DNA from: Lycium barbarum
Taxonomy: Eukaryota > Streptophyta > Magnoliopsida > Solanales > Solanaceae
Direction: 5' to 3'
Assembly: GCF_019175385.1 (NCBI RefSeq)
Contig: NC_083339.1
Coordinates: forward strand, 49,094,282-49,158,281
Length of the DNA: 64,000 bases
The notes under the pieces are model-generated. The model saw only the letters and a list, made by a program, of their open reading frames with translations, was not told where the DNA came from and searched no databases. This document shows, one piece after another, positions 9,066-56,818 of the stretch. A program made the position numbers and the translations under genes. Within the stretch, counting starts at the first letter, position 1, and each line of letters begins with the position of its first letter.

Positions 9066-9132
9066 CCTGCGGGCATGAAATGCAGCCCCCGAAGAAAGGG
9101 GGTCAGTACGAATAGTGTACTAAGCATGTAAG
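9066..9132 (-). promoter_or_regulatory. LTR hairpin module, copy 1
   Basis: Minus strand: TAGTAC-N7-GTACTG, then CCCCC-N7-GGGGG, then CTGCA-N9-CGCAG. The first stem has one T.G wobble and the last has one mismatch. Found as sequence pattern; RNA folding is inferred. Confidence 0.6.
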
Positions 9133-9247
9133 GCAAGAAATCAATATATACATAAAATCATGGAAAACATTTGAGGCGTGTCAATGAATGGGCAAAATAA
9201 ATGCATCATTATAGCTATATCAAAGAAACACATATATCCATAGAAAT

Positions 9248-9560
9248 ATCACAACAAAGGCCACAGCGTCACCCCCTGTCAACTGTGCCATAAATATACA
9301 CATCACAACAAAGGCCACAACACACCCCCTGTCGACTGTGCCATATATATACACATCACAACAAAGGCCACAACACACCCCCTGTCAACTCTGCCATATA
9401 TATACACATCACAACAAAGGCCACAACATACTCCCTGTCAACTATGCCATACATATACACATCACAACAAAGACCACAACATACCCCCTGTCAACTGTGC
9501 TATATATATACACAACAAAGGCCACAGCACACCCCCTGTCAACTGTGCCTTACATATACA
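9248..9560. repeat. 53-bp minisatellite in solo LTR
   Basis: About six units begin with ATCACAACAAAGGCCACA at 9248, 9302, 9355, 9408 and 9461, with a shortened unit near 9510. The spacing is 53-54 bp. Confidence 0.9.
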
Positions 9561-11150
9561 TGAAAAATGAAAATAAGTGCAGTGCATAATCAAAATGAAA
9601 TAATAGAGCTCTCTGTAATGTCACAAAATAGCCATATGCATATATTATACTCATGGCATGCATAGGAGTTCAAACGAAAACTATCGCTCTATCCCACCTT
9701 GGAGGAACAATTTATAAGGTGAGATCAACAACAATGAAATAAATCAAGAAAATCATGAAATAGCTTAACATTTTCATATCATCGTTGAAATCATATTTGA
9801 GACCTTTAAGCATAAAATCATCCTCAACGTAATCCTCATAAAAAAATTCTCGTTCTTAACATCATAAGAAGCTTTAAGAGTCATAAACTTCTAGCTTTGA
9901 AATCAAGGAGGTTATGAAAACACTTATGGAATCATACCATAGGAATCATGCCTTTGAAAGAAAAGGACGAGCCTTAACATACCTGGTCAACCTCCTAGTA
10001 GCTACGCTTATGTGTCGGAGCTCGCAAGTCTACATTTAAGAGGATTTATACTAACGTTAGCCTCTTCATTGCACACTTGTACCAAGTTTCAAATTATACT
10101 ATTCTATATTCTGCCGAAAATCGAGCAGCACCTCCCCTGTTTATATGCCTAGCCCGAATTCTCAATTCAACAACCAACAACAACAATAATAATACCAACA
10201 TACATAACATCATGTCCAACACCAAAGTATTACATAGAACAGCCCACACGCTATTTTCCAACTTTCATAACTAACCAACTTACTACACAACTATTTAACG
10301 GCTTTATCTCCGAAAATAAGCCTTAAATAATACCAAAAGAGAAAGATTCATACCTTTTTTTCTTGTTAAGACAACAATATCCTCAATATCCACGCTAAAA
10401 TCTCCCGCAAAACAATACTAGAATCATAACCATGCGTTACCCTGACCTAAACCACTACTCCACGACTTAAATATTGCACACTTTTGGTTCCCTCACTTTC
10501 TCTCTTCAATTTTCTGGAATTTTCCAGCGAAATCTTGTGAAAAAAAAGGGGTTCTTACCTTTTTTATAAGGGTCAAATTCGGGTCGGGGTCACTGTAGCA
10601 TTTTACTGTAGCACGCGTCCATAACACGCGTACATACTGTAGCTCTATTAGCTGGACTTGTAACGTCCATAATTCTCTACTCCGATGTCCTATCGATGAA
10701 CAGTTGTTGCGTTGGAAACTAGACTCGATGAATTTCATTTTAGGCTTTTGTTTCACCTTAAAACACTTCATATGCTCAGAAATATTCGTCCCCCAAGTTG
10801 GACCAAAATTTTCACACAAAACATTACCTATCCTTTCTCCAAAGTTATACTACTTCATTTCTTCCACTCATTTCCTTATAAAACCTTTCGGTATACCTTA
10901 TATACATCCTTCACTCATTAAATATACTTAATAATGCTTGCTCCTTATATTCCAAAGTGGTTTTACTTAACTCTAACTCAACGTACATATGTTTCAAATT
11001 TGATAAGTGCTCTTCGAAGATACGGGGTGTAACATCTAAACACCTCAAAAAGCGTGTCAACGGGTCCCCTTGGGTCAAAAGTGAGCTAACCAAGCTCGGG
11101 AAAGGGTCAAAAGTGTCAGAGATGCAATAATGACCAAACGGGTCGTTACA

Positions 11151-11755
11151 ATGTGCCGGATACAGTGTAGCAGAAATATGACCGCTGCGGCGAGTGTCGG
11201 GTAGATTCTCTTATATTTGCTAAGTTAAAAATCCTCAAACATTTCTATCATCACTCTCTAAGCATACTTTGGGCGAATTGAATAGCTCTTGTACTAAATC
11301 CTTCTGTGGTAAGTTTTCTAACCATTAGACTTCATTAATTGTCTTGCAGTTATCTTTCTTAATCTCTAAATCATGGTAGAAACCATTAAAATCAAATAGG
11401 GAAGATGAGTTTTTATGATAAATTCTCGAAATGACTTCTAGACTTCCTAAATAGAAATTGATTGTGAAATTGACTAGTTTAATCATAGAATTTGATTGAT
11501 TCATTGTAAATAGGCTTAAATCTTCCATTGTTAGTGATTAATTTGAGGATTGGAAAGTTAGGGTTCATACCCAAAATTGGGGGATTCACTTTAATTCCAA
11601 ATTTGGCCTAATCTTGGGATAATTTAGCAATTGAATAATGGGTTTTGATCATCTAGAGCGTGCGTTGCATATTTCACTTTCAAAATGACTGTTCTACCCT
11701 TGTGGCCTCGTTTCCCCCTTTCTCCATAGTTGGATTTGACCTAAATGATAAGTAT
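11151..11755 (+). mobile_element. Degenerate LTR fragment, inverted relative to 7636-8648
   Basis: The words from 11560 to 11755 (TTAGGGTT, CCCAAAATTGGG, CAATTTAGCAATT, TTGGATTTGACCTAAAT) occur in the same order in the reverse complement of 7640-7850. It is therefore a diverged copy of the same LTR family in opposite orientation. No coding sequence. Confidence 0.45.
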
Positions 11756-17465: not shown

Positions 17466-17780
17466 AAGTTAGACATTCAAAACCACTCCGAAGGGGGTGT
17501 GAGATTTTACTATTTGGATGTTCAAAACCACTCCGAAGGGGGTGCGAGATTTTACTATTTCATTTCATTTACGATTTATGTTTACATTCCATAGCATCAT
17601 CTCTTTGTATTGATATTTGTGGATTAAGTTTTTGTTGACATGATTGTGATACTAAGCCGGAAGCGGCTGCCCGAAGGGGCCATCATTATTAAGTCGGAAG
17701 CGGCTGCCCGAAGGGGCCATCATTATTATGCCGGAAGCGGCCGTCCGAAGGGACCATTTTGTTAACATGTCGGAAACGGC
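17466..17780. repeat. Two minisatellites in the solo LTR
   Basis: Two copies of a unit of about 51 bp containing CCACTCCGAAGGGGGTG lie at 17466-17565. They are followed at 17655-17780 by three and a half copies of a unit of about 38 bp containing CGGAAGCGGCTGCCCGAAGG. Confidence 0.85.
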
Positions 17781-17958
17781 ATGGGTGTTAGATTGCATCA
17801 TTTACTTAAAGAATGTGTGTTGGATTGCATTATTTACTTAAATATTGTTTTGAGACTTCATGTATACATTGATGTTTCTTCCAGCGAAGGCTGCAGGTAT
17901 TGAGTTAGATTGTGATTTCTTCTCTCCTAAATAAAATTATGATTATGATTTGTTACCA

Positions 17959-18028
17959 CCTTACATACTCAGTACATTGTCCGTACTGACGTTCTTTTGC
18001 CCGGGGATGCTGCGTTCATGCCCGCAGT
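17959..18028 (+). promoter_or_regulatory. LTR hairpin module, copy 2
   Basis: CAGTAC-N7-GTACTG and CTGCG-N8-CGCAG are intact. The middle C/G stem is not recognisable in this copy. Confidence 0.55.
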
Positions 18029-25341: not shown

Positions 25342-27711
25342 ATCCAACATAAGAAATTTTACAGAGGCCGAAGGATTTGGCCATATTCAAGCATGAAAAT
25401 CAAGAACTCGGTGTATACGAGGAATGGAGTCCTGAAATGATTTAAGATGGAAAAGTGTGACGACGATGATTGCAAATAATATTTTATGTATGGCAAATGA
25501 GGCTATGGACTAGTGTTATAATACATGGTCATGATAATGAGTATAAAAAGTGTATCAAAAATGATTACTATGTAAGTAAATTGTGACCAAGAAATTAATC
25601 ATGTGAATAATTGGAGCAATGTTGGATTTTGGTGGGAGATTAATGAATTAATTAAGCAATTGTGGATAACTATTTTAGTGGGCTGCCACGTGGAATGGGT
25701 TGCAAGTGACAAATAAAGGTCCACGTGACACCTTTATATGAAACAAGTAATGACTAATGTTCATTAAGTAGTCTATGGGTGACACCTTGATAAAATAGCA
25801 ATAGTGATTAATGTAGAATGATGTGGTTTCACGTGTTTTGTGGGCAGCAACTAGGATGCAATTGTGGCCAAAAAAAAATAAAAATAACGTTTTCATGTTT
25901 AGATATTCATGTATAGTTGTGTAAGTATATGTTAGACTACTATGTACGTGAAGAAGCAAAATCAAATGGCCATGGATGACTAACTTAGAGCTCTCGACCA
26001 ACTTTTCTATTGGAAATAATTCAAGATTTCCAACAAGAGCGTTGATAACACAAGAGTGCAAATTAAGGTTCTCTCTATTTATTGAGGTAAGACTTCCGTT
26101 CTAGTTTGATTCACTGGTTCGGATGAGAGATTTTAGTATGTTTTGGATAAAGGACTCACGAGACGGTGATCGGAAACCGTGAGTTAGAATTATATTAAAC
26201 TTAGTGTTGGTTGCTTAAACTTTTATTGGAGTGCCTAGCTTGTGTTGTTGATGTTTTGAAGTTTGGAAGGGTGAAGGATGTGGAGAACCACCGTATAGTT
26301 GATTATAGCGAGTTTGCCTCTAGTCGTTTAGTTGGTTGTATTTTCTTGTATTTGATAGTGATGTTATTATAATTTTTGTAGATTAGCATGTATTGGACGG
26401 ACTGATTTCATAGTAGTAGTTGAAGGGGCGGCATGTAAGGTATGTAAAGCTATCCCTTCTTTCTTTTTGGCATGGTCTATATGAAACAAACATACGACGA
26501 ACATATAAAACTCCAAAGAAACTCTTATTCCTAGAGATACTAAAATGGCTAATGTTCTTGATTTCCAGAAGCTATTTCATTATGTCCTGATACGTGTCTA
26601 TGATTCCTGAAGTCCTATTTTGATATAATCCATAGTGACAGTCGAGGGTGCTCCCAGGTTATTCAAGGAGTTCAGAAATAAGTTTATGAGTCTCACTTGC
26701 ATTATGACTCCAATGAATTCTAGTTCTCAGTGGTACTTGATGTGACTGTTGTCTTGATTCTCAAGTGTTAGTTCATTCTAATTATGCTATTGAGTCTCAG
26801 ATGATGATTTAGTTTGCATATGGTTGCTCATGATATTATAATCGTTCATAGCATTATTACATCATTTCACCGAGTCCCGAGCCGGGTATGTATTCGTGCA
26901 CAGTTTCATTTCATTGTTCACCGAGTCCCTCACTAGAGGGCCGGGTACGGTATATATATATGATTATTTCACCGAAACCTGCACTAGAGGGCCGGGTATG
27001 GTATATATGTATATGCATTCATTCACCGAGTCCCATATTGGGCCGGGTACGGTATATTATATAGATATGCATGACTCTCATCTCATAAGGCACAGGTGCA
27101 TTGGTATCTTTGATTATCATACTTGTCTCCTGTCATCTTTTAATTAGTCATGATCTTCTTTATTGTATTTCATGCTTTATATACTCAGTACATTTTTCGT
27201 ACTGACCCCTTTTCTTCAGGGGCTGCGTTTCATGCCCGCAGGTTCAGACACTCAGTTTGGTGATCCTTCAGCCTAGGACTTCTGCTCAGCTGTTTGGAGA
27301 GCTCCATTGTTCCGGAGCCTAAGTCATTTTGGTACAGATTCTTTGATATTGACTTAGGCATATCCAGGGGTACGGCGGGGCCCTGTCCCGTCATATTTCA
27401 CTTTTATACCCTTAGAGGTCTATAGACATGTGTGGGTTGTATATGGGTTTTGGTCAGCTACATCGATATGATTCGTTTTGGGTATTTCTGCACATAGTGG
27501 CAGCCTTGTCGGCTTGCATAATATGTTATGTTTTGGTTAGCTGTGACTCCTCAGGAGACAGGTTCATTATGATATATGTCGTTATGAGTCTATAGCTTGC
27601 TTTTACAAATTTCCATATTGTCCTTAGTTTCAGTCTGACTATATCTAACAGGTTCGTATACGAGTGTCCAGCTCGGGCACTAGTCATGGCTCATCGGGTT
27701 GGGTCGTGACA
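25342..27711 (+). mobile_element. Tekay-like LTR (LTR1), start truncated
   Basis: It ends with GGGTTGGGTCGTGACA at 27711, followed by a perfect primer-binding site. The left end, in sequence matching the reverse complement of 14760-14960, lacks the TG terminus and a polypurine tract. The U3 part therefore resembles the 12963-15195 LTR. The part from about 26440 on matches the reverse complement of 28726-29995. The segment 26880-27060 has about four units around CACCGAGTCCC and GGGCCGGGTA. It carries the hairpin module. Confidence 0.75.
27176..27243 (+). promoter_or_regulatory. LTR hairpin module, copy 3
   Basis: CAGTAC-N7-GTACTG, CCCC-N9-GGGG and CTGCG-N9-CGCAG, all complementary. Confidence 0.6.
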
Positions 27712-35745: not shown

Positions 35746-38393
35746 TGTCACAACCCAACTAGATAAGCCATGACTAGTGCCCGAGCTAGACACCCGTATA
35801 CGAACCTGTTAGATATAGTCAGACTGAAACTAAGGACAGTATGGAGACTTGTAAAAGCAAAATATAGACTCATAACGCCATATATCATAATGAACCTGTC
35901 TCCTGAGGAGTCAAAGCTGACCAAAACATAACATAATATGCAAGCCGACAAGGCTGCCACTATATACGGAAATACCAAAACGAACCATATCGACATAGCT
36001 GACCAAAACCCATATACAACCCACACATATCTACAGACCTCTAAGAGTATCATAGTGAAATATTACGGGACAGGGCCCTGCCATGCCCCTGGATATGCAC
36101 AAGTCTATATCAAAGCATCTATACCAAAATGACTTAGGCTCCGGAACAATGGAGCTCTCCAAACAGCTGAGCAAAAGTCCTAGGCTGGAGGATCACCAAA
36201 CTGAGTGTCTGTACCTGCGGGCATGAAACGCAGCTCCCGAAGAAAGGGGGTCAGTACGAGAAATGTACTGAGTATATAAAGCATGAAATACCATAAAGAA
36301 GATCAAGACTGAATAAAAGATAACAGAAGGCAAATATGATAATCAAAGATACCAATGCACCTGTGCCTTACGAGATGAGAATCATGTATATCTATATCAT
36401 ATACCATACTCGGCCCATTCTGGGACTCGGTGAATGAAGTCTTATACATAAATACCGTACCCGGCCCTCTAGTGAGGGACTCGGTGAACAATGCATTGAA
36501 ACTGTGCACGAATACATACCCGGCCCGGGACTGGGTGAATGATATATTAACGGTATGCACGAGCAGAATATCATGACCAACCATATGCAACTAAGTCATC
36601 ATCTGAGACTCAATAGAATAATTAGAATGAACTAACACTTGAGAATCAAGACAACAGTCACGTCAAGTACCACTGAGAACTAGAATTTATTGGAGTCATA
36701 ATGCAAGTGAGACTCATAAAATTATTTCTGAACTCCTTGAATAACCTGGGAGCACCCTCGAATGTCCCTATGGATTATATCAAAATAGGACTTCAGGAAT
36801 CATAGACATGTATCAGGACATAATGAAATAGCTTCTGGAAATCAAGAGCATTAGCCATTCTAGTATCTCTAAGAATAGGAGCTTCTTTGGAATTTATAGG
36901 TTCGTCGTCTGTTTGTCTCATATAGACCATGCCAAAAAAAAGAAAGAAGGGATAGCTTTACATACCTGACAATCTACCTAATCACCCAACGTCTACTCCT
37001 CGAGTCCGTATGTCTACAATCACAACGATAATATCACGATTAGACCATTTACACCACTTGCTATCTAATTTGTATACGAACGGAACTTAATGAAATTCGG
37101 CAGCATTTCCTCTATAAACTGGGCAATCCCGAAAATCCAATTCAATTGAATTATCAACAACATCAACAACAATACCAACCATTAATATACGTCATAACTC
37201 AGCTAATCCCATCCATTTAATTCAACTAAAACAGCCCCCGATCCATAAATCTCAACAAAACAACGAACGGGCTTATAACGCTATTTTCTCCGTTCTAATC
37301 CGTTAAAACTCTAAATAAACTTATTAACAATGAAAAAAGGGCCCTTAATATTACCTTAAGTATGCAGTAAACACGTCAATACTCTTCTTTTTGGATGATT
37401 TTTAGCTCAAACTGAAGGCAACGCGACGTACAACGCTTTTCTCTTCATGAGCTTCGGGATTCGGGGCTCGGATTTTGATCAAAATGGCTTTCTTAGCCTA
37501 GAAGTTCTCTCCCTCTCTCTCTCTATTGTTTTGGAAGTTCCTAGATGCAAATGACCAGCCTTCAAATCAATTTTTCATATATATAAATGTTAATGGGCCT
37601 CATGGGCCGAAATATACTCATGGGCCGAAATGCGAATGTTTGGGTCGGGTCTCAACTTGCTGCCCCGCCAGCCCAACTTGCATCGACCAGAACTCGTTAT
37701 CCCGATATCATTTTGACGATCGGTTTGTTCCGTTGGAAACTAGACTCGATGAAATTCATTTTAGGCTTTTGAAACACCTTAAAACTGCTCATATACTAGG
37801 AGATATGCCTCCAACGATATGGCTTAAAAATCTGGTTCGAGATTTTACTGAAGTTGTTCCGATTCATTTCGTTTAACTTCTAATCCTCTTCCAACCCTCA
37901 TGTAACCTCTTATACATATATATAAATACTCATATACATCCATAACAATCCATACACGTGTCTCGAAGGGCCCGGAGAATCACAATAACCTTAAACATAG
38001 CTAGAGAACTCACAAAGCTTCGACGAAACTCCAATCGCAAAAGTGTATTCATATCTTTTGTCCATCTTCTATATCATTACTCATAATCTCAAATACTTTA
38101 AAAGGGCACTCACATTACCTCGTATACGTACTCATAACACTATTTCAAATCTTTTAGGTTGCCATGTCACCTCAGGATACTTAAGGCAACCATACATATA
38201 TAACGATATTCTTACTAACTCGATTAACTTCCCTTGAACTTTCTTAACTCGTTCATTTTGTCTTAAGTCAAGTAGCACAGACTCTTACGGGTGTAACAAC
38301 ATAAATACTTATAACCTCAAAATAATCTTGTCCTCTGATCTTATGTCGGTTAACTTACGAATAATCCAACGTACAGAAGTACGGGATGTAACA
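35746..38393 (-). repeat. LTR3, 2648 bp
   Basis: The minus strand runs from TGTTACATCCCGTAC (38393) to GGTTGTGACA (35746). It is the 5' LTR of the pol-depleted element. The right flank continues directly into the dispersed repeat at 38400. Confidence 0.85.
36213..36283 (-). promoter_or_regulatory. LTR hairpin module, copy 5
   Basis: CAGTAC-N7-GTACTG, CCCCC-N7-GGGAG (one mismatch) and CTGCG-N9-CGCAG. Confidence 0.6.
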
Positions 38394-39154: not shown

Positions 39155-39225
39155 CTTATGGGCATGAACACAACGTCCATAAAAGAGAGGACGTCAGTAC
39201 GAATAATGTACTGAGTATGTAAGGC
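39155..39225 (-). promoter_or_regulatory. LTR hairpin module, copy 6 (compensated stems)
   Basis: CAGTAC-N7-GTACTG is kept. The second stem is ACGTCC-N10-GGACGT instead of C/G runs. The third is TTGTG-N8-CATAA instead of CTGCG/CGCAG. Both arms changed together. Confidence 0.65.
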
Positions 39226-41588: not shown

Positions 41589-41927
41589 TGTCACACCCCA
41601 AGCCAGAGGTGTTAGTTCGGCACCGACCTTACTGGCTGGGTACCAGTGTACCTTACATATTACTCAACTCGAACGAGTCGTGGGCCGACAAGGCTGTCAT
41701 ATAATAGTAAAATAAAAGAAGGACTCATTGTAAACAACAAAAATCAGAGAAACATTCATATGTATAATGTCTATATAAGGTCGACGAGGCCACTATGAAA
41801 GTCTGCATATCAGAACACAAGGCCAATAAGGCCGCACACATGACTAACCATAGGACACATGTCTATAAGCCTCTAACAGTAGCATGACTGTAAGAAGGTC
41901 GGGACAGGACCCCACCATACCCGTAAT

Positions 41928-42105: not shown

Positions 42106-42175
42106 ACCTGCGGGCATGAAACGCATCGTCCAAGAAAGGGACATCAGTACGGATAAATGTACCGAGTATGTAAGG
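42106..42175 (-). promoter_or_regulatory. LTR hairpin module, copy 7 (compensated second stem)
   Basis: CGGTAC-N7-GTACTG (one wobble), GTCC-N7-GGAC in place of C/G runs, and TGCG-N9-CGCA. Confidence 0.6.
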
Positions 42176-43171: not shown

Positions 43172-45997
43172 TGTTATATCCCGTGTTTTAACACGTTAGA
43201 AAAATTTGGAAATATTCTTGGCTTGTAAGAAATAAGGTTATAATTAATTTTTATTTGACATAGGAGTTGTGTATGAAAGGATATTAATGTGGAAGTGTCG
43301 AATAAGGCCAAGGGCAAATTTGGAATTTTGGGAATTAGTTTCGGAAATTACAAAATGTGACTTATAAGTCATTGGGCCAAAATAATTCAATGAAAAATTA
43401 AGGCCCAATGCTAAGGGGTGGCCGGCCAACATAGTGGCCAAGCCCATGATTTTATTAATTTTCCCATGTGTTTAATTAATAAGGGGACCATGTTATATAT
43501 ATATATCATCTTATCCCTTAGATTGTTCAAGAAGCATAGAACAAACAAAAAAACAAAACAAGAGAGAGCAAGAAGAAGAGGGCTCGGGTTTGGCTTGGAA
43601 AAATCACCCCCTAAAATATTGCTCCTAAAATTTTTCTCTTGGTGAATTTCTACTAAGTTGAGGTCCCTTTATAACTTGGTGTAGTTGCTTTGGAAGAAAG
43701 AACACTTGGTGCCTCAATTTGATCACTTATTCAAGTGAAGAAGACTAGAAAATAAGGTAAGAATTTATCTCTTTTTATTGTGTTATGATGTTTTGTTTGT
43801 GTTGTAGTATGTGGGAATGAGTTGATTGTATGGAAAATTGGAAGATTTCAAAGTGGGATTGGAATATGGTGTGTAGCCGTGAGGGTATATGTGTTGTATA
43901 CCTATAATGTGTTGAACTATGTTATATTTTAGTTGTGAATGTGATGGAATTCATATTGTGAATGAAATTTGAATAAATTTGGTTGAATTGATAAATAGAG
44001 CAATTGGCCGTGTGGTATATTGGAGTAGGAATAGAAATGGATTAAGTTGTTTTTGTGTTAGTGTGTTATTGTAATTCTTGCAATGTGAACGAAAGTAAAA
44101 CAATATGAGTTTGCTTTGAAATGGAATGTAGAAACTTATATCGCTTTAGTATGATCTTACGACATTATGAAAGTGAAGTTATTAGGTTGCTAATTAGGAC
44201 AAGTATTGATGAACTTGGAAGTTGGAATCATGTTATGAATATGTACGCCAAAGATTAGAAGTTTTGAATAAGTTATGACTTCGGCGGAAAGTTTGTATAT
44301 TATGTATATCGTGTGTATAACTTGAGGAAACGATATGAAATATTTCTAAAACCATATTGTGATGATCTTGATTGATAATGAATGTGAAATCATTGATATT
44401 AGTTTGAAGATTTGGGTGGGAGTGAAGGTTATGTCACTTTGTCAGAATGATGGCTAGTTGAAGGATATTGTGTCTCTAGTGTTTGTTGTTGATGTTGATG
44501 TTGTTGTTTGGGTTGTTGTTGATGGTTTTGAGCCGAGTTGAATTCTCGGGGGTGCTATATGTATAGGGGAAGTGCTGCCGAAATTTCAGTAGGCAAGTAT
44601 GCATTAAGTTGAATTTATGGCATCCATAACTCACAATGGGTAAATGTGACCATTTGCAGATTTTCGACGAAACGGAGAGTGAGCTTGGATAGGCTTAAAA
44701 ATCTCAAGAGGTATGTAAAGCTACCCCGATCCTTTTTTTGGCATGCCTAAGGGTATTAGAATCGGATTCGGGCCTCGAAAGACTTTCTGCCCCTCGGAAT
44801 CCGCAAGTGCAAATATCACTTTTTCTTTCAATAAGATTAAACTCTTTTGGTACGCTTTCTTGGAAATTATGCAAACTTTCTCTAAACTACTTGGAAAGCT
44901 ATAGAGCGTCCGTAGAACCTTTGTAGGCGACCCCATAAGTTTAAAATATGTAATTTGAGCCCACCGCCTTGCTTGTCCCGAGGTGGGCCCACTATTCCCG
45001 GTTTTGCCCTTATTGTACTTAAGTCCTATTTTCGAACGGTTTTTGAAAGAAATGTTTTGACTACCATCGTCATTACCTGACAAACATGGTTTTAAATACT
45101 CCATTAAGTCTGATAAATTGTTTTGACACTCGAAACTCATTTACTATGATCCCTTCCGACTTCATTGGATCGGTTTGTCTTTGATATGCTTCATCGAGTC
45201 TATGGAAACATTTATGATATTTTAATTGCATTAGTCTCTAACTACTCCGTTCGTGGATGCCCCAATGTTTCCCACACTGAGCCCGGGCCAGGATATGTTG
45301 TCAAGCGTGATCCTTTGCATTGTTCGCCGTGCCTCGATGTGAGGGGGCAGGTATACGCGTACATGGGTTTGTGGAGTATGTTGTGCCATGTATGCTTGTT
45401 CTGATATGATTTGCTATGGCCATTTGATATGACATATTATGATACGGGGTTATGCCCCTTTTCTGATTCTTCTGTGTTGTGGCACCAGCGTCGGGTACCG
45501 ACGACAGGTTTGCCGATCCGTCTGTCTAGGATATCTTTTCTGCCATTTGGAGCGCTATTTTATTCAGAGCCATCTTTTGGTACAGTCTGTCACTTCTATA
45601 TATGTATATTCTCGCTCATGGGTACGGCGGGGCCCTGTCCCGCCATATGATTCTGTTGGTCTGTTTAGAGGTCTGTAGACATATTTGTGGGTTGGGGATT
45701 TTCTGTACAGATGTGTGCTTATGTTTTGTTTGGGCGATCCCATTCGCCGCGGCGGCCGGTCCGCATATCTTTAACTGTTGCTTAGTTGGTTGCTTTGTTG
45801 GCCTGTGTGGTCTTTGTTGGTATTTTCTGCGTGCAGGGTATATGGTATAGTCCGTAAAACAAAGGAAACTCTGCCGAAATTTTTCTGGAAATTATCCAAA
45901 TTTGAAATAAAGCCTTGTCGGCTTCTGCCATGTACTAGAATGCATTTCAGTGCCCAGATCGGGCGCTAGTCACGGCCTACGGGGTTGGGTCGTGACA
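43172..45997 (+). repeat. 5' LTR, 2826 bp, with a 239-bp deletion
   Basis: It runs from TGTTATATCCCGTG to GGGTCGTGACA. Compared with the 3' LTR it lacks the equivalent of about 53536-53774, joined at 45496 with a GGT microhomology. The missing part includes the complete three-hairpin module. The fourth hairpin (GGCGGG-N7-CCCGCC, 45626-45644) is retained. Confidence 0.95.
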
Positions 45998-46001
45998 AAA
46001 G

Positions 46002-46013
46002 TGGTATCATAGC
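46002..46013 (+). other. Primer-binding site
   Basis: TGGTATCATAGC, one mismatch from the TGGTATCAGAGC found at the other complete sites. Confidence 0.85.
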
Positions 46014-46054
46014 GGTTCGTCCTCGGAATGTCTACAGACCGTGTCTAGTAGAGT

Positions 46055-46094
46055 CTTGTTTATCGGTGTGTTGTGCACCACACCTATAAACAGG
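46055..46094 (+). promoter_or_regulatory. Leader hairpin with GTGCAC loop, copy 1
   Basis: The lower stem is CTTGTTTAT / ATAAACAGG (one wobble), then one C-T mismatch, then GGTGTG / CACACC, with an 8-base loop TTGTGCAC. The palindrome is at 46073-46078. The hairpin begins about 40 bases after the primer-binding site. Confidence 0.65.
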
Positions 46095-46200
46095 AGGCTA
46101 CAGGGCATTTAGGATGCTACCCTTCTTTCTGTCTTAGATCGTGCGATAGAGCTGTGTTATCAGGATGACTCCTCCCTAACGAATTTTTACATTTGCAGTT

Positions 46201-49200
46201 ATGCCTCCAAAAAAGGCGACAGCGGCCCAGAAGGCCAAGGCAGCGGCCGCGGGAGAGACTAGTCGGGCCCAGAGGGTTACCAGGGCCCATGCACATATTG
46301 CTCCTGATATTTTGCCCCCGGCAGAGGGCTCTTCCACACCGCCACACGTAGAGGAGATTGGAGCAGCAGCAGCTGCAGGTCGAGGGGCGGCTCCACCGCC
46401 AGCTCCCGAGATTCCAGTACCTGAGCCTCCAGCTCCACGGCCAGGGACTGAGGATCAGACTATGAGAGAGGCAGTCCAGCTATTGACCAGACTTGTGGCA
46501 GGACAGGTTCAGGGGCACGGACTGGGAGGTGACCGGGCTTACAGGCGTGACAGTTCGAGAGCCCGTGAGTTCTTGACTTGTGGCCCTTCATAGTTCTTTG
46601 GGACAAAGCCCGAGGAGGATCCTGAGGAGTTTATCAGGAAGATGCGGCGCACCTTATAGTTGATTAATGCTTCCGCGACAGAGTCAGTCACGTTGGCTTC
46701 GTACCGGTTGTATGATGTAGCGGCTAATTGGTACGAGTCATGGGAGTTATCCAGAGGTGACGGTGCTCCCCCAGCAGTTTGGGATGATTTTTCTCAGGCT
46801 TTTCTTAGCCATTTTCTGCCTCCGGAGTTACGGCGGGCCAAGGCTGACAGATGTTTATTGCTGAGACAGAGGGGTCGCAGTGTTCGAGAGTACAGTATGG
46901 AGTTTGACTCATTGGCCCGATACGCACCTGCTGTGGTAGCTACTATGGCTGACAGGATGCACAGGTACATTATGGGGATGGACCGTTATTTTGTCGACAG
47001 CTGTTTGGTATTGGCTGCTCAGCCCGGCATGGATATTGCCCGGATTCAGGCGCACGCCCAGGGCATGGAGGACCGGCATAGGGAGCGTCAGCCTGATAGG
47101 AGCCAGGATCGGAGGCAGCCCAAGAGGGCCAGATCATCCGGGTATTCGGGAGTGTTTTGGGGCAGACAGCCTCAGCAGCAGCAGCAGCCTAGCAGATATC
47201 CATCCCAGCCGGCACAGAGTGCACCTCCACAGCCTACAGGTAGCAGATTTGATAGCCCAGGGTATTCAGGAGCAGGTCAGAGCTCCAGGGCTTCAGGTTC
47301 GCGGACAGATAGGGGTTCTGGTCAGACGAGGCCACCTAGGCCTCAGTGTTCTTATTGTGGCAGATACCATCCTGGGGAGTGCTACAGAGCCACCGGTGCA
47401 TGTTTTTCTTGTGGCCGTCAGGGCCATTCTGTGAGAGATTGCCCGTATAAGGGTAGTTCGGGTGGTGCAGCGCAGCCTACCGGATCAGCTGCCGGGTCAT
47501 CATCTTCATCAGTGGCTATGCGCCCTACGGGGCCAGGTACTTCAGCACCAGCGGGTCGCGGCAGAGGCCGTGGTGGAGCTTCTGGTACTAGCGGTCCTTC
47601 GAACCGTATTTATGCTTTGTCCAGCCGCCAGGACCAGGAGGCATCGCCTAATGTCGTTACAGGTACATTATTGGTCTTCTCTCGGTCTGTGTATGCATTG
47701 ATTGATCCAGGTTCGACTTTGTCATATATTTCGCCCCTTGTTGCTAGTAAAATTGGTATAACGTCCGAGCCTATAGAGTCATTTGAGGTAGCTACACCGA
47801 TCGGGGACTTTATTATAGCAAGACAGGTTTATAAAGACTGTTCTGTAATTATATGTGGCCGAGATACTAAGGCAGATCTGGTGGAGTTAGATATGATCGA
47901 GTTCGATGTTATTATGGGTATGGACTGGCTAGCTTCCTGTTATGCCAATGTTGACTGCCAAAATAAGGTAGTTCGTTTCCAGTTTCCCGGGGAGCTAGTT
48001 ATAGAATAGGCAGGTAATACTGCATCGCCGAAAGGTAAGTTTATTTCATACCTTAAGGCGAAGAAAATGATCAGAAAGGGTTATTTTTATCATCTGGTTC
48101 GGGTACAAGACTTGACAGCAGAAACGCCGACTCTTCAGTCAGTTCCCGTGGTTAATGAATTTCCAGATGTATTCCCAGATGAGCTTCCAGGCCTTCCTCC
48201 AGAGCGGGAGATAGATTTTACTATTGATTTGCTTCCAGATACTCAGCCGATATCTATTCCCCCGTACAGAATGGCTCCGGCAGAATTGAAAGAACTGAAA
48301 GAGTAGCTGAAAGATCTGTTAGAAAAGGGTTTTATCAGACCCAGTACTTCGCCTTGGGGAGCTCCGGTATTATTTGTGCGGAAGAAAGACGGGTCGCTGC
48401 GTATGTGTATTGATTATCGGCAGCTGAATAAGGTAACCATAAAGAATAAATACCCCCTCCCCAGAATTGATGACTTGTTTGATCAGTTGCAGGGCGCCAA
48501 ATATTTTTCGAAGATAGATCTTCGGTCTGGCTATCATCAGGTACGAGTACGAGAGGCCGATATTCCTAAGACGGCATTCCGGACCAGATATGGGCATTAT
48601 GAATTCAGAGTTATGTCATTTGGGTTAACTAATGCTCCTGCGGTATTCATGGATCTAATGAACCGAGTATTCAGGCCGTTCTTGGATATGTTCGTAATTG
48701 TATTTATCGATGACATTCTGGTCTATTCTCAGTCCGAGGCAGAGCACGTAGATCATCTGAGAGCGGTATTAGGGGTACTTCGGCATCAGAAATTATATGC
48801 AAAATTTTCTAAATGTGAATTCTGGCTGGCTTCAGTGGCATTCTTGGGACATATTATTGCAGCTGATGGTGTCCGGGTGGATACACAGAAGATTGAGGCC
48901 GTGAAGAATTGGCCCAGACCCACGACGCCCACGGAGGTACGTAGTTTTCTGGGGTTAGCAGGCTATTACAGGAGATTTGTGGAAAAGTTTGCTTCGATTT
49001 CAGCGCCTTTGACAAGGCTAACTCAGAAGGGAGCTAAGTTCCAGTGGACCGATGCATGTGAACGAAGCTTCCAGTTGCTGAAAGAGAAGTTGACTTCAGC
49101 TCCAGTTCTGACTCTTCCAGAGGGACCCGATGGATATGTTATTTATTGTGACGCTTCTGGCATGGGATTGGGCTGTGTATTGATGCAGCATGGCAGAGTT

Positions 49201-51120
49201 ATAGCTTATGCTTCCCGACAGCTCAAAAAGCATGAAAAGAATTATCCTACCCACGATCTGGAGCTTGCAGCGGTGATTCATGCTCTGAAGATATGGAGAC
49301 ATTATTTATATGGCGTTCATGTGGATATCTATACAGATCATAAGAGTCTCCAGTATATTTTTAAGCAGAAAGAGCTTAATTTGCGACAGCGGAGGTGGCT
49401 GGAGCTCCTGAAAGACTATGATATGGATATTCTGTATCATCCGGGTAAGGCTAATGTCGTTGCAGATGCACACAGCCGGAAATCTATGGGCAATTTAGCA
49501 GATTTACAGCCAGACAGGAAAGAGATAGTACGTGACATTCATTAGTTGGCTAATCTTGGGGTTCGTCTGGCCGATTCTGGCGGTACACGGATTTCTGTCC
49601 GAGGGACTTCTAAATCATCTATTAAGGAAGATATCAGGCGACATCAATATGAAGATCCTGTTTTAGCTCGATACAGAGACACAGCCTATGATAAGGAGAA
49701 GACTCCGTTCGAGTTTACACCAGACGGAACCTTACTATACAGAGGCAGGTTGTGTGTACCTGATATTGCAGGGCTGCGGCAGCAGGTTATGGGCGAGGCA
49801 CACTATGCTCGCTATTCTGTTCATCCTGGGTCTACGAAGATGTACCATGATCTTAGATGCCTATACTGGTGGGATGGCATGAAACGGGATATCGCAGAGT
49901 TCGTCGCCCAGTGTCGAAATTGTCAGCAGGTCAAAATTGAACATCAGAAACCGGGTGGACTATTGCAAGAAATGGAAATTCCGACGTGGAAGTGGGAGAT
50001 CATTAATATGGACTTCATTACAGGTTTGCCTCGCACTCCACGGAAGTATGATTCCATCTGGGTTATTGTTGATAGGCTGACAAAATCAACCCATTTTCTC
50101 CCCGTCAGAACTACTTACTCCGCTGAGGATTATGCCAGGCTTTATATTAAAGAAATTTTGCGACTTCATGGAGTTCCTATATCTATTATCACTGACAGAG
50201 GTGCTCAGTTCACAGCGAACTTCTGGAGATCTTTTCAGGAAGGATTAGGGACTCAGCTGAGCCTGAGCACAGCTTTCCATCCTCAGAGTGACGGACAGGC
50301 CGAGCGCACTATCCAGACGCTTGAAGATATGTTGCGGGCCTGTGTTATTGATTTCAGAGGTAGCTGGGAGGATCACTTGCCATTGATTGAATTTTCTTAT
50401 AATAACAGCTACCATTCCAGCATCCAGATGGCTCCGTACGAGGCTTTATATGGTAGGAAATGCAGGTCACCTATTGGCTGGTTTGATATTGGCGAGACAG
50501 AGCTAATTGGCCCAGATATGATCCATCAGGCCGTTGATAAGGTGAAACTTATCCGAGGGCGACTATTGGCAGCCCAGAGTCGACAGAAATCATACGCTGA
50601 TAAACGGCGTCGTCCTTTGGAATTCCAGGTTGGTGATTGGGTATTTCTGAAGGTATCGCCTATGAAAGGCGTAATGTGGATCGGCAGAAAGGGCAAACTT
50701 AGTCCGCGTTATATTAGGCCTTATCTGATTGTGCGGAAAATTGGAAATGTCGCCTATGAGTTAGATCTGCCATCTTATTTGGAAGCGGTACATCCGGTAT
50801 TCCATGTCTCTATGCTCCGCAAATGCATTGGCGATCCCTCCAAAATATTTACTACGGATGATATTCAGGTGACGGAGCAGTTATCGTACGAGGAGCAGCC
50901 CGTATCCATTTTGGACCGTCAGGTAAGGAGGCTCCGGAACAAAGATGTAGCCTCTGTTAAGGTGTTGTGGCGGAATGATAATAGGGAGGAAATGACCTGG
51001 GAGGCCGAAGAGGAGATGAAGAAGAAATATCCTCATTTGTTCCATACGGCCACAGGTAATCCTGAATCCTTACTTAATTCTGTTTCACTAATGAATGTGC
51101 GTCATATGTGCTGTCTATAA
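46201..51120 (+). pseudogene. Tekay gag-pol polyprotein with five amber codons
   Basis: The ATG at 46201 follows a TTTGCAG that could be a splice acceptor. The frame is continuous to TAA at 51118, 1639 codons without a frameshift. Domains in order: gag; a half zinc motif (CSYCGRYHPGEC) and a CCHC knuckle (CFSCGRQGHSVRDC, residues 401-414); aspartic protease (IDPGSTLSY, catalytic Asp 502); reverse transcriptase with FIDD at 835-838; RNase H (CDASG, Asp 984); integrase zinc finger (His 1201 to Cys 1238); catalytic Asp 1291, Asp 1332 and Glu 1368, the last two with D(35)E spacing; chromodomain from about 1561. Ambers lie at 46591, 46657, 48007, 48304 and 49543. The length is usual for Tekay. All catalytic residues that I can see are present; only the stops disable it. 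Confidence 0.95.
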
Positions 51121-51187
51121 ATATAAACTCCCCCGAAGTATTCTCAGACCCTATAGGATTAATTTAACATTCGAGGACGAATGTTCT

Positions 51188-51212
51188 AAAGGGGGGGGGG
51201 GGGGGGGGAGGA
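51188..51212 (+). other. Polypurine tract with a run of 18 G
   Basis: AAA, then G18 (51191-51208), then AGGA, ending directly at the 3' LTR start. The conserved word CATTCGAGGACGAATGTTC precedes it. Related tracts in the window have five to seven G. Confidence 0.9.
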
Positions 51213-53703
51213 TGTTATATCCCGTGTTTTAACACGTTGGAAAAATTTGAAAATATTCTTGGCTTGTAAGAAATAAGGTTATAATTAATTTTTATTTGAC
51301 ATAGGAGTTGTGTATGAAAGCATATTAATGTGGAAGTGTCGAATAAGGCCAAGGGCAAATTTGGAATTTTGGGAATTAGTTTCGGAAATTACAAAATGTG
51401 ACATATAAGTCATTGAGCCAAAATAATTCAATGAAAAATTAAGGCCCAATGCTAAGGGGTGGCCGGCCAACATAGTGGCCAAGCCCATGATTTTATTAAT
51501 TTTCCCATGTGTTTAATTAATAAGGGGACCATGTTATATATATATCATCTTATCCCTTAGATTGTTCAAGAAGCATAGAACAAACAAAAAACAAAACAAG
51601 AGAGAGCAAGAAGAAGAGGGCTCGGGTTTGGCTTGGAAAAATCACCCCCAAACATATTGCTCCTAAAATTTTTCTCTTGGTGAATTTCTACTAAGTTGAG
51701 GTCCCTTTATAACTTGGTGTAGTTGCTTTGGAAGAAAGAACACTTGGTGCCTCAATTTGATCACTTATTCAAGTGAAGAAGACTAGAAAATAAGGTAAGA
51801 ATTTATCTCTTTTTATTGTGTTATGATGTTTTTTTTGTGTTGTAGTATGTGGGAATGAGTTGATTGTATGGAAAATTGGAAGATTTCAAAGTGGGATTGG
51901 AATATGGTGTGTAGCCGTGAGGGTATATGTGTTGTATACCTATAATGTGTTGAACTATGTTATATTTTAGTTGTGAATGTGATGGAATTCATATTGTGAA
52001 TGAAAGTTGAATAAATTTGGTTGAATTGATAAATAGAGCAATTGGCCGTGTGGTATATTGGAGTAGGAATAGAAATGGATTAAGTTGTTTAGTGTGTTAG
52101 TGTGTTATTGTGATTCTTGCAATGTGAACGAAAGTAAAACAATATGAGTTTGCTTTGAAATGGAATGTAGAAACTTATATCGCTTTAGTATGATCTTACG
52201 ACATTATGAAAGTGAAGTTATTAGGTTGCTAATTAGGACAAGTATTGATGAACTTGGAAGTTGGAATCATGTTATGAATATGTACGCCAAAGATTAGAAG
52301 TTTTGAATAAGTTATGACTTCGGCGGAAAGTTTGTATATTATGTATATCGTGTGTATAACTTGAGGAAACGATATGAAATGTTTCTAAAACCATATTGTG
52401 ATGATCTTGATTGATAATGAATGTGAAATCATTGATATTAGTTTGAAGATTTGGGTGGGAGTGAAGGTTATGTCACTTTGTTAGAATGATGGCTAGTTGA
52501 AGGATATTGTGTCTCTAGTGTTTGTTGTTGATGTTGATGTTGTTGTTTGGGTTGTTGTTGATGGTTTTGAGCCGAGTTGAATTCTCGGGGGTGCTATATG
52601 TATAGGGGAAGTGCTGCCGAAATTTCGGTAGGCAAGTATGCATTAAGTTGAATTTATGGCATCCATAACTCACAATGGGTAAATGTGACCATTTGCAGAT
52701 TTTCGACGAAACGGAGAGTGAGCTTGGATAGGCTTAAAAAGCTCAAGAGGTATGTAAAGCTACCCCGATCCTTCTTTTGGCATGCCTAAGGGTATTAGAA
52801 TCGGATTCGGGCCTTGAAAGACTTTCTGCCCCTCGGAATCCGCAAGTGAAAATATCACTTTTTCTTTCAATAAGATTAAACTCTTTTGGTACGCTTTCTT
52901 GGAAATTATGCAAACTTTCTCTAAACTACTTGGAAAGCTATAGAGCGTCCGTAGAACCTTTGTAGGCGACCCCAAAAGTTTAAAATATGTAATTTGAGCC
53001 CACCGCCTTGCTTATCCCGAGGTGGGCCCACTATTCCCGGTTTTGCCCTTATTGTACTTAAGTCCTATTTTCGAACGGTTTTTGAAAGAAATGTTTTGAC
53101 TACCATCCTCATTACCTGACAAACATGGTTTTAAATACTCCATTAATTCTGATAAATTGTTTTGACACTCGAAACTCATTTACTATGATCCCTTCCGACT
53201 TCATTGGATCGGTTTGTCTTTGATATGCTTCATCGAGTCTATGGAAACATTTATGATATTTTAATTGCATTAGTCTCTCACTACTCCATTCGTGGATGCC
53301 CCAATGTTTCCCACACTAAGCCCGGGCCAGGATATGTTGTCAAGCGTGATCCTTTGCATTGTTCGCCGTGCCTCGATGTGAGGGGGCAGGTATACGCGTA
53401 CATGGGTTTGTGGAGTATGTTGTGCCATGTACGCTTGTTCTGATATGATTTGCTATGGCCATTTGATATGACATATTATGATACGGGGTTATGCCCCTTT
53501 TCTGATTCTTCTGTGTTGTGGCACCAGCGTCGGGTGGGTGGCCACGTTCTGTCTGCCGAGTCCCTTGGCAGGGGCCGGATTTGATATGACATATGTTTCT
53601 GTACCCACTCTGCATGTTTGAAAATATATATCTGATACTTTGGATATTCTGTTTACTTTCTACACGTCCTGTACCAGTTATGAGTTTGTTTATGTAATTC
53701 AGG

Positions 53704-53774
53704 CTTTACATATTCAGTACATATTTCGTACTGACCCCCTTTCCTCGGGGGCTGCGTTTTCATGCCGCGCAGGT
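53704..53774 (+). promoter_or_regulatory. LTR hairpin module, copy 8
   Basis: CAGTAC-N7-GTACTG, CCCCC-N7-GGGGG and CTGCG-N11-CGCAG, all complementary. Absent from the 5' LTR of the same element through deletion. Confidence 0.6.
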
Positions 53775-53903
53775 ACCGACGACAGGTTTGCCGATCCGTC
53801 TGTCTAGGATATCTTTTCTGCCATTTGGAGCGCTCTTTTATTCAGAGCCATCTTTTGGTACAGTCTGTCACTTCTATATATGTATATTCTCGCTCATGGG
53901 TAC

Positions 53904-53922
53904 GGCGGGGCCCTGTCCCGCC
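53904..53922 (+). promoter_or_regulatory. LTR fourth hairpin
   Basis: GGCGGG, loop GCCCTGT, CCCGCC. Counterparts with the same or nearly the same loop lie at 18144-18162 (GTCAGG/CCTGAC), 27374-27392, 45626-45644 and, on the minus strand, near 56589-56607 (GACGGG/CCCGTC). Confidence 0.6.
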
Positions 53923-54281
53923 ATATGATTCTGTTGGTCTGTTTAGAGGTCTGTAGACATGTTTGTGGGTTGGGGCTTTTCTGTACAGATGTGTGCTTAT
54001 GTTGTGTTTGGGTGATCCTATTCGCCGCGGCGGCTGGTCCGCATATCTTTAACTGTTGCTTTGTTGGTTGCTTTGTTGGCCCTGTGTGGTCTTTGTTGGT
54101 ATTTTCTGCGTGCAGGGTATATGGGATAGTCCGTAAAACAAAGGAAACTCTGCCGAAATTTTTCTGGAAATTATCCAAATTTGAAATAAAGCCTTGTCGG
54201 CTTCTGCCATGTACTAGAATGCATTTGAGTGCCCAGATCGGGCGCTAGTCACGGCCTACGGGGTTGGGTCGTGACACTAGT

Positions 54282-54786
54282 ACCTAACACGACGAGCGGT
54301 AAGCACGGTTTGCAACCCATAACCACCCCTTCCCCCTATTTTTTTTGCTAATTTTAACACAACAATAACAATAACATGGCCAACATATATAACATATTTA
54401 CATGATTCCTAGCCTTATACTCATCACAAGAACCACACCAAACTGCCCACACGACGACAACAACAACAGCTTATACGATTCCCCGCGATTAATTCTGTAT
54501 TTCTCATCTCACAATTTAGCTATGATATGGAAGAACTTAAATATATCTAAGGAGAGGAGAATTATTACCTTATAAGCCAAGAACTACTCTTCTTCAACCT
54601 TACTTTACTTCGAAGAAAGCCCAGACTCAACAACACGATAAAGACAGAACAACGAGATCAAAGCGGCGTGTAAAACCTGTATGTTGTTCTTGACGAGAAC
54701 TATACTTTGATCTCTTGAAAATTTTCATGTTACTGCATAGAGGGAGTATCATGTTGTTGTTCCACATAATTTGTGCTATGCATAAT
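54282..54786 (-). mobile_element. Tekay-like LTR, right part after the insertion
   Basis: Continuation of 41589-43171 beyond the target duplication. It resembles 13560-14310 of another LTR (CCGCGATTAATTCTGT, AAGAACTACTCTTC). Its true start is not seen; it is cut by the LTR at 54787. Confidence 0.55.
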
Positions 54787-56257
54787 TGTAATGACCCGTT
54801 AGGTCATTTTGGTTGCTTTCGTTGTTCTGCCTATTTTGCCCTTCTAAAACAGCCCTTTTGCTCCTTTTGGGATTTTGATAAGTTAAGTAACCTTTAATTG
54901 TTAAGTTGACTTTAGGCATCTTTGGGGGTAATTGTGCCTTTTGGGATTTTTGTTGGTCCCGTTAGCTTCGGGATGTCAATTATAAGCCGTTGAATTGTTT
55001 GGTTCAGTTTCTGAGGGTCTTGGGGGGGGGGGGGGGGGGGGAGAAGGGGTCATTTTGTTGGAAAGTTGGTTTTTTCTCGTTCGGGGTTGACTTGGTCAAC
55101 GCGACCCCTTTTGGAAATTTTGAGTGCGCGAGTGAGTTCGTAGCTCATTTTTATATGTTTCTGCATATTTGATTTGTCTCGGGGAGGTTCCGGGAGAGTC
55201 TCGAGATTTCGGGTGTTGAGAGTTAAAAATTAGATTTTTCTGGTTCTGGTGTTCGTGCAGGCGCGAACGGGGTCCCGCCCCTGCGGACGCACTCCGACAA
55301 GAGGAGGACCACAGGAGCGAAGGACTACTGGGTTGACCTTGATCCGCCCCTACTAAGGATTTATCGCAGTTGCGAATACGCAGCCGTGAACTGGGCTCCG
55401 CCGCTGCGAGCTTGTGGTTCTTTGGAGAAATACACCGTGGCAAAGTCTCTTCCGCTGGTGCGTGTTCGCCGATGCGAACCTAGGTGCGCAGATCGTTGAA
55501 CGGAATATGGTTCTTTTAGTATCTTTTCCCTTTGTCTTTTCATTCAAAACCCTTAAGCCTTGAGAGCGAATTTGGAGGTGAGGGAAGGAGTTCCAATAAG
55601 AAGACCTTTGGGTAAGTGTTCTAATGGGATATTTTTGTTATTCCATCTATTAAGATCATAATCCATGCTTCGAATATTGATTTTTAAGAGTAATAATAAA
55701 GGGTTTTGGAACCCAACTTGGAAATTTGGGGTTTTAGAAATTGAGCATGAATTAGTGATTATTTTTGGATGATTTTCAATTTATGGGTTATATTGAGTAT
55801 GAGGATCATGATTCTAGTTTCAATTTACTATTTTTCCCTTTTGGGTTCGGAATCCTAATTTTAGGGCTAAATTTGGAGGTGTTGGATTATGTAGCAATAG
55901 GGGTATTGATAGACTCATATTCTAATGAATAACCTTTATTTGACTAGACTTTGTTAGTTTGGAGATTATTCGGAGTGGTAAGAGGGTGTCGTGTTACGAG
56001 ATTCAGCATTCTAGGCATGTTGAGACCTTGAACTCTATGTTGAGACCTTGAACAATTTCTTGAATGTGTTTATTGGCTAAAATGAACCTAATAAGAGGGA
56101 ATCGGGGTGAATTAAGGGGGTTCCGATACTTTTAAGGTGACGAGCACTAGTATTGGATACTGGTCATCATGGTATGGGTATTTGTGCAATTTCAATTGTA
56201 TAGTTTGATTTGAATGCCATGCTTTAGGAACTAGTTGATAGAATAGTATGATCCCTT
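54787..56257 (+). mobile_element. TGTAATGACCC-type LTR, interrupted at its right side
   Basis: It starts TGTAATGACCCGTTAGG, related to the inverted start at 11150. It contains about 20 G at 55022-55041 and a GC-rich patch at 55260-55470. It is cut at 56258 by the minus-strand Tekay element. Short frames on both strands in the GC-rich patch have no domain. Confidence 0.55.
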
Positions 56258-56747
56258 TGTCACGACCCAACCCCGTAAGCCGTGACTGGTGCCCGACATG
56301 GACACCCGTATACATACACTTTAGCTATATGTTCATTTCACATCAAACTCAATATGGATCTTATAACGACCAAACCATGGTCTCAAAACTGTCACATAAA
56401 TATTCATATAAATGCAAGCCGACAAGGCTGCCATCATATAATAATATCATATGCAAGCCGACAAGGCCGCCATCATATACGAACATCATACCATAACACA
56501 TCGTATAGACACAGCTGAACATAACCCATACACAACCCACACATATGTCCACAGACCTCTAAGAGTAGCAACAGTAATGTAATATATGACGGGACAGGGC
56601 CCCGTCGTACCCTTAGTCCACATAAGCATATAAATATATATCCGAGAAGGATTTGTACCAAAGTCTGGACTCCGGAACAATGGAGCTCTCCAAAATAGCA
56701 GAAGGGGAAAATCCTAAGCTGTCGGATCACCAAAGCGAATGTCTGCA

Positions 56748-56818
56748 CCTGCGGGCATGAAACGCAGCCCCCCCCGAAGAAAGGGGGTCAGTACGGAATA
56801 TGTACCGAGCATGTAAAG
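56748..56818 (-). promoter_or_regulatory. LTR hairpin module, copy 9
   Basis: CGGTAC-N7-GTACTG (one wobble), CCCCC-N7-GGGGG and CTGCG-N9-CGCAG. Confidence 0.6.

Follow-up and report, generated by a model that had tools for sequence, protein, structure and literature searches.

A chain of three hairpins with conserved pairing in the long terminal repeats of Tekay-like retrotransposons of Lycium barbarum

Chromovirus repeats in the window and the three-hairpin module

The window analysed here, 64,000 nucleotides (nt) of the genome of Lycium barbarum, a member of the Solanaceae (contig NC_083339.1, positions 49,094,282 to 49,158,281), is crowded with long terminal repeats (LTRs) of Ty3/gypsy chromoviruses, nine of which carry a chain of three short hairpins that we refer to as the module. 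One complete, Tekay-like element lies on the plus strand at 43172..54276, bounded by the target site duplication (TSD) CTAGT, with LTRs at 43172-45997 and 51213-54276 and, within 46660-51120, frames for gag/protease, reverse transcriptase-RNase H and integrase/chromodomain. Its Pfam matches follow the order Retrotrans_gag, RVP_2, RVT_1, RT_RNaseH, Integrase_H2C2, rve, Chromo; rve (30.5 vs. 32.6 bits) and Chromo (23.0 vs. 25.1 bits) fall slightly below the curated cut-offs. This domain order, with a weakly matching C-terminal chromodomain, points to a Tekay chromovirus (Ty3/gypsy), and the LTR lengths in the window (2.4-3.6 kb) and the 5-base-pair (bp) TSDs CTAGT, AGTTG and TCTAA fit Tekay as well. 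The available part of PMC3605345 gives LTRs of mostly 2.6-3.0 kb and a 5-bp TSD for the Bongo families. The gag sequence is closest to a protein of Lycium barbarum, at 87% identity, and the named gag matches are mostly Lycium, Nicotiana and Solanum proteins.

In all nine copies the hairpins follow one another in the sense order H1-H2-H3 with no base between them. The stems of 7, 5 and 5 bp (17 pairs in total) take the sense-strand form TCAGTAC-N7-GTACTGA, then the 5-bp H2, then CTGCG-loop-CGCAG, with loops of 7-8, 7-10 and 8-11 nt. The initial annotation had listed nine such places about 400-600 bases before the LTR end, and all of them proved real when read on both strands: a covariance model built from the nine copies recovers the same nine in the window at 78.7-101 bits (the next match reaches 13.7 bits), and H3 lies 408-519 nt from the LTR end in every one. 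H1 is present at all nine places, while the exact word CAGTAC-N7-GTACTG that had been ascribed to each is found in five; of the others, 9066 and 56748 have one G-U pair (the copies being named here by the positions first given to them), 42106 combines a G-U pair with a loop of 8 nt, and in 29193 two pairs are broken. The word CATGCC, said to follow the module, is actually inside the H3 loop in eight copies, and CATG is there in all nine.

Three copies have the plus strand as sense strand. Copy 17959 occupies 17969..18027 (H1 17969-17989, H2 17990-18009, H3 18010-18027) in a solo LTR at 15519-18484 with TSD AGTTG, copy 27176 occupies 27185..27241 (H1 27185-27205, H2 27206-27222, H3 27223-27241) in an LTR that ends at 27711 and is followed at 27717 by TGGTATCAGAGC, which resembles a primer binding site (PBS), and copy 53704 occupies 53714..53772 (H1 53714-53734, H2 53735-53751, H3 53752-53772 with an 11-nt loop) in the 3' LTR of the complete element. 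The other six are read on the minus strand: copy 9066 at 9067..9123 (H1 9103-9123, H2 9086-9102, H3 9067-9085; solo LTR 8649-11034, TSD TCTAA), copy 29193 at 29195..29252 (H1 29232-29252, H2 29214-29231, H3 29195-29213; LTR 28726-31428), copy 36213 at 36215..36271 (H1 36251-36271, H2 36234-36250 with one broken pair, H3 36215-36233; LTR 35746-38393, PBS at 35741), copy 39155 at 39156..39214 (H1 39194-39214, H2 39174-39193, H3 39156-39173; LTR end 38748), copy 42106 at 42108..42165 (H1 42144-42165, H2 42127-42143, H3 42108-42126 with its outer pair broken; LTR end 41589) and copy 56748 at 56749..56808 (H1 56788-56808, H2 56768-56787, H3 56749-56767; LTR 56258-59883, downstream of minus-strand gag-pol reading frames). 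The sense so defined agrees with the gag-pol frames (53704, 56748), with the PBS (27176, 29193, 36213) or with the word at the LTR end. The LTRs of 29193 and 36213 are 92% identical, which suggests that they belong to one element, and if they do the breaks in these two copies would be changes that followed insertion; no TSD was found when one was sought for 28726-38393.

At least one further LTR, the 5' LTR of the complete element, is without the module: at 45480..45500 on the plus strand it lacks 236 bp that are present at 53536-53771 of the 3' LTR. The deletion (at 45496) ends with the module, has GGT at the joint and its right edge is the end of H3. This edge could reflect a structure-driven slip in cDNA synthesis, or coincidence.

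The LTRs that share this place in their layout differ strongly elsewhere, as had been noted, though they are not nine families: downstream of the module, 27176, 29193 and 36213 are mutually 92-94% identical and share 81-83% identity with 9066, the remainder reaching only 40-72%. Keeping one member of the 27176 family leaves seven diverged LTRs, whose downstream parts have 40-82% identity (45-47% among the three with class-B H2 stems, described below). In stretches of 20 columns their mean pairwise identity is 0.85 over H1, 0.62 over most of H2 and 0.81 over H3, compared with 0.69 for the 20 bases preceding H1 and 0.24-0.62 elsewhere outside the module. H2 is thus the least identical stretch of the module, yet it is 97.8% paired in the window. 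Loose three-hairpin chains are common (counted in 30-nt bins and with the module copies among them, 17 on one strand and 15 on the other, vs. a mean of 4.5 in 12 shuffles of one strand), and such a chain is unremarkable alone; the fixed place, order and sequence are beyond chance, and we rejected a chance hairpin chain on these grounds.

Pairing across copies in the window and the genome

Within the nine copies 96.7% of 153 stem-pair cells can pair, vs. 28-53% with slid partners, and five of the 17 pairs are changed on both sides. H2 exists in two classes, class B being CGTCC/GGACG at 39155, TGTCC/GGACG at 42106 and CGTTC/GGATG at 17959; the double changes reported earlier for 39155 (H2 and H3) and 42106 (H2) are therefore correct, and 17959 adds another. 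The H3 of 39155, TTGTG/CATAA, retains four Watson-Crick pairs and one G-U pair, and in copy 27176 the loop-closing C-G of H2 is replaced by U-A. A stricter null, in which every substitution is reassigned to a different stem base of its own kind, yields p = 0.02 for broken pairs when the difference between classes A and B is accepted as given. From 150 columns of the aligned nine flanks, RNAalifold returned exactly these three hairpins unprompted. Taken alone, the window gives good but not overwhelming support for pairing.

The module is abundant in the genome. The H1 pattern occurs at 98,383 places vs. 5,567 for the pattern read backwards, and a 17-base word from the H3 loop and arm at 9,472 plus 9,329 places vs. 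0 and 0. Twenty 10-kb pieces fixed by coordinates on ten contigs held 22 model matches at 51-91 bits (at least one match in 15 of the 20 pieces), one of which (L066:347) has a damaged H3, and one further copy is cut by a piece end (16 bits). This is about one module per 9 kb, which, extrapolated to a genome of 1.67 Gb, would amount to something like 1.8 x 10^5 copies. On contig C1, 50 H1 places were listed and 43 examined, four of a tandem array and three surplus places being omitted; by eye, 39 have the full module, one has H1 with a weak match (L038) and three have nothing (L022, L027, L029). Five H1 places spaced at 4738-4742 bp (G000:C1:1774818-1793778, sampled by L020) look like a tandem array of a retrotransposon-derived unit. 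Thirty-nine loci among L009-L052 were scored with the model (L010, L026, L041 and L045 were left out as their modules are identical to others, L013 as it is the same place as L011), and 35 full modules among them score at least 61.6 bits.

The module also occurs in records beyond this genome: searches with the translated LTR returned one, then 21 peptides from short ENA contigs (20 with E up to 0.0036, one at 0.12), in three of which (P0124, P0135, P0137) we read a definite break of H1. IMG/VR gave no homologues, by pattern or by integrase, and the eight wide-pattern matches in GTDB contigs all fall in bacteria-titled records, against about nine expected by chance by our own estimate, with a best model score of 12.1 bits.

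From the samples, 68 model-fitted matches yielded 66 distinct rows; removing the rows L038, L024:1131 and L066:347, which are weak or misaligned, and two duplicates left a 63-row set. Across the 66 rows 96.6% of 1109 cells pair (23-47% with slid partners) and both sides have changed in 82 cells vs. 27.5 +/- 9.1 in shuffles. Eight of the 17 pairs are double-changed, or seven without the three weak rows, on which one of the eight depends. One H2 pair is C-G in 32 rows, G-C in 24, G-U in three, U-A in one and unpaired in six, while the adjacent pair is C-G in 32, U-A in 30 and U-G in three; in H3, the fourth pair is C-G in 44, U-A in 14, U-G in four and unpaired in three, and the fifth G-C in 51, A-U in four, G-U in two and unpaired in seven. 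Since C-G to G-C is a transversion, cytosine deamination cannot account for that exchange. Choosing copies by other means gives the same picture: in 34 copies selected by exact H1 alone (L038 excluded) 166 of 169 H2 cells and 163 of 170 H3 cells are paired, and in 20 of the coordinate-picked copies, found by the model itself, 94.3% of 336 cells pair.

The exchanges also recur when placed on a tree. On a tree built only from the downstream flanks of 63 copies, H2 class A is not one clade (approximately unbiased test, p-AU 1.5e-5, with long branches present), the H2 classes switched at least three times, and parsimony requires at least 14 Watson-Crick exchanges in total for seven H2 and H3 pairs, neighbouring pairs partly switching jointly. 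Contrasts were too few for independent-pair sign tests to reach significance. We consider selection on base pairing very probable for the module, and for H2 and H3 it is well supported. The larger-alignment test proposed at the outset, carried out in a smaller form with the 66 distinct rows, did not refute the claim; of the selection on RNA folding then suggested, the part concerning pairing is supported for H2 and H3, whereas H1 contributes no double change and the assignment to a strand is borderline.

Two further details of the stems were seen. A sixth H2 pair is present in L017, L024, L016, L028 and L021 (CGTCCG/CGGACG, CGTCCG/TGGACG, CGTCCC/GGGACG). In the 63 rows, an extra base before the 3' arm of H3 is always a purine (11 G and three A of 14, read manually) and stands opposite U, as a sixth pair requires.

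Strand, folding and surroundings

The pairing kept in two stems over changing letters, the fixed orientation and the frame-breaking indels are best read together as RNA structure, and we hold it probable that the module acts as RNA. The sense consensus folds with an energy z of -6.2 against 300 column shuffles and a structure conservation index (SCI) of 0.96, and H1 reaches a computed probability of 0.88-0.98 in eight of the nine copies within about 470 nt of context (0.01 in the ninth). No upstream reading frame is conserved: the loops of the copies differ by 1-3 nt, frames differ past H2 in the 21 ENA peptides, and a protein-coding upstream frame is rejected since the loop indels break any frame. 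A 3-bp UAC/GUA helix directly enclosing the three hairpins is possible in 84% of 63 copies (rival places, 76% and 73%), and another, four bases further out on the 5' side, has 85.9% of its cells paired and no double change; a closing helix that would form a cloverleaf is a candidate only. ARAGORN, with bacterial settings, predicted no tRNA genes.

Upstream, conservation climbs within about 30 nt before H1, and the 10 bases directly preceding it, CTTTACATAC, are strongly conserved in the 63 copies at 1.47 bits per position; a core promoter or start-site role is possible for them. Tandem arrays are common in U3, the promoter part of the LTR. Here, arrays of 32-53-bp units in three sequence families stop 121-126 nt upstream of H1 in four of the nine window LTRs (9248-9560, 17781-17842, 26917-27063 and 29379-29521), a near-constant spacing to the module. 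Downstream, the LTR-end word and PBS were located 373-509 nt past H3 in 13 of the 63 copies. With U3-like arrays on one side and the LTR end and PBS on the other, a place at or after the transcript start fits, and for this reason an element of the leader is the most likely reading.

Several observations weigh against a leader RNA kept for its pairing. Further pair types in the nine copies do not rise above shuffles (reached in 94 of 500), H1 is without any double change in the 66 rows, its one-sided changes being mostly A-U to G-U, single changes are dominated by C to T and G to A, the pattern of methylated repeats, and recombination of the module between families could mimic the repeated H2 class switches. 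The 68-row alignment was fitted to the covariance model and its structure; plain MAFFT alignment of the 22 coordinate-picked copies gave, with RNAalifold, six H1 pairs, three H2 pairs and no H3, the latter missed because the two H2 classes were aligned out of register. Wobble pairs leave the strand borderline (G-U 38 vs. A-C 22 in all stems of the 63 rows, p = 0.052) or undistinguished (19 vs. 14 in the coordinate-picked copies, p = 0.49), and any strand signal would be diluted as most copies are presumably dead and decaying. The antisense fold is equally good (z -6.5, SCI 0.93), and folding energy was accordingly discarded as a means to assign the strand. In the same computed context H2 and H3 each reach a probability of 0.5 in only three of nine copies. 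The five other LTRs have arrays at 110 and 216 nt (two LTRs) or none listed (three), and loop 3 offers a palindrome, CAUG, of just four bases.

Other features accompany the module or lie near it. A GC-rich hairpin, H4, about 130 nt past H3 (53899..53924, plus strand), has the form GGCGGGGC-CCU-GUCCCGUC and further copies at 18139-18164, 27369-27394 and 45621-45646 on the plus strand and at 29042-29067, 36062-36087, 39018-39043, 41896-41921 and 56586-56611 on the minus strand. Over eight copies 93.8% of its 64 cells are paired with two double-changed pairs, values reached by shuffles in 45 and 56 of 500, and an H4-like word occurs in 31 of 63 copies; as a conserved hairpin H4 is suggestive only. 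On the minus strand at 28600-28760, the LTR end at 28726 and a PBS-like word are followed about 43 nt on by a second LTR-end-like TGACA and PBS, an arrangement that may be read as a recombined or tandem element. Positions 5906-7145 hold a minisatellite whose units, about 33-49 bp long, show TCCACGTCCAC/TCCACTTCCAC motifs.

Candidate roles in the retrotransposon RNA

We postulate, as a tentative reading to which we give not quite even odds, that the module acts in cis, as a structural element of the retrotransposon's own RNA, in an R/U5 leader position, with recognition by Gag as its most likely use. It would lie downstream of U3, the promoter part of the LTR, within transcribed R or U5, which would put it into the 5' leader of the genomic RNA at some 440-580 nt from the PBS, and at the 3' end as well if it is in R. 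Three short hairpins set head to tail, with CAUG exposed in loop 3, would form a compact RNA surface at which the CCHC zinc knuckle of Gag might recognise, dimerise or package the RNA, as in the hairpin chains of retroviral leaders. The sense strand and the R/U5 place are inferred, and Gag binding is proposed by analogy. By the same analogy, packaging or dimerisation is possible rather than probable as the role, and the position before the PBS is only compatible with a packaging signal (psi) in the 5' leader. Retroviral dimerisation sites have a loop with a self-complementary stretch of about six bases; the CAUG of loop 3 has four, in all nine copies.

TAR and the poly(A) hairpin belong to the hairpin chain of the HIV-1 leader. 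That chain (TAR, poly(A), SL1-SL4) is like the module in its tandem short hairpins near the RNA start, one of them with a palindromic loop, and unlike it in that the module is inside the LTR, some 440-580 nt before the PBS, with a palindrome of four bases. The SL1-SL4 leader hairpins of HIV-1 are described in PMC3902901, which also treats G-quadruplex sites in plant LTRs as non-B structures at typical promoter distances; the module consists instead of paired stems, and none of its nine window copies contains four separate G runs. Other structured RNAs of plant LTR elements differ in place, as the Sirevirus hairpin at the polypurine tract (PMC3601003), or in being catalytic, as the hammerheads of retrozymes (PMC4918200). 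Rfam held no family at gathering score in the 64 kb, and a search relaxed to E 1, made for 53400-54300 alone, gave none either; a literature search whose coverage excluded most subscription papers found no description of the module.

A role of the hairpins in R at the RNA ends, TAR-like or like a poly(A) hairpin, aiding minus-strand transfer or 3'-only polyadenylation, is somewhat unlikely. The position fits R as well as U5, and the rise in conservation over about 30 nt before H1, up to those last 10 bases, would suit it; no TATA word, however, stands at a constant distance in the nine copies, nor was a conserved AATAAA noticed near the module by eye in the alignment, no dedicated search for it having been made. 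Benachenhou et al. 2013 (PMC3601003) tie the conservation that is left in long R regions to stem-loops, and the LTR motifs described there resemble the module in linking conservation inside LTRs to such structures. They differ in that LTR length variation prevented models of plant Metaviridae, the group that carries the module.

We regard a DNA-level element, in which the inverted repeat of H1 with its two GTAC cores is the site of a host regulator and the module part of the promoter, as distinctly unlikely. GTAC is the core of the sites of SPL factors. CGTACTGA is invariant in the nine window copies, H1 is never compensatorily changed and could be kept as a DNA palindrome, and the two strands fold equally well. 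H2 and H3, however, change letters yet keep their complementarity, which a protein reading the sequence would not require, and their double changes thus count against such an element.

Still less likely is a translation element of the leader, e.g., ribosome shunting of the kind known in plant pararetroviruses, over structure with short upstream frames. In its favour are the length that the leader would have and the AUG in loop 3, and a comparable arrangement, also in the leader of a plant retroelement before its first long gene, is described for caulimoviruses in PMC5902531. That shunt, according to the same paper, is built on one large stem-loop whose basal arm sequences are neither conserved nor essential, whereas the module is three short hairpins with strongly conserved loops and H1, and the loop indels break frames across it. 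Finally, an absence of function, with common descent and cytosine deamination in methylated repeats yielding apparent pairing, might draw on the mere p = 0.02 of the same-kind substitution null with nine copies and on the abundance of C to T and G to A, but is highly improbable given diverged LTRs that are 40-82% identical downstream (class B, 45-47%) against 0.62-0.85 in the stretches of the module, the C-G to G-C exchange, the slid-partner controls and the tree counts.

Ty3 elements contribute a large share of plant DNA through their long LTRs. Within these LTRs the module is a positional anchor that survives where the remainder can hardly be aligned, and it can be used as a probe to find and classify LTR ends and as a place to map transcript starts. 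Such LTRs have so far resisted motif models (PMC3601003). As the structural element of the leader that we favour, the module is a concrete candidate for the recognition of plant chromovirus RNA. It is unlikely, but conceivable, that with it a packaging signal in the RNA of plant chromoviruses has been mapped for the first time, one shared by many families whose LTRs can otherwise hardly be aligned, perhaps exchanged between them, present in the order of 10^5 copies in this genome and found in other nucleotide records too. If it were, it could explain a sharing of machinery among diverged families, and non-autonomous or diverged elements could use each other's Gag.

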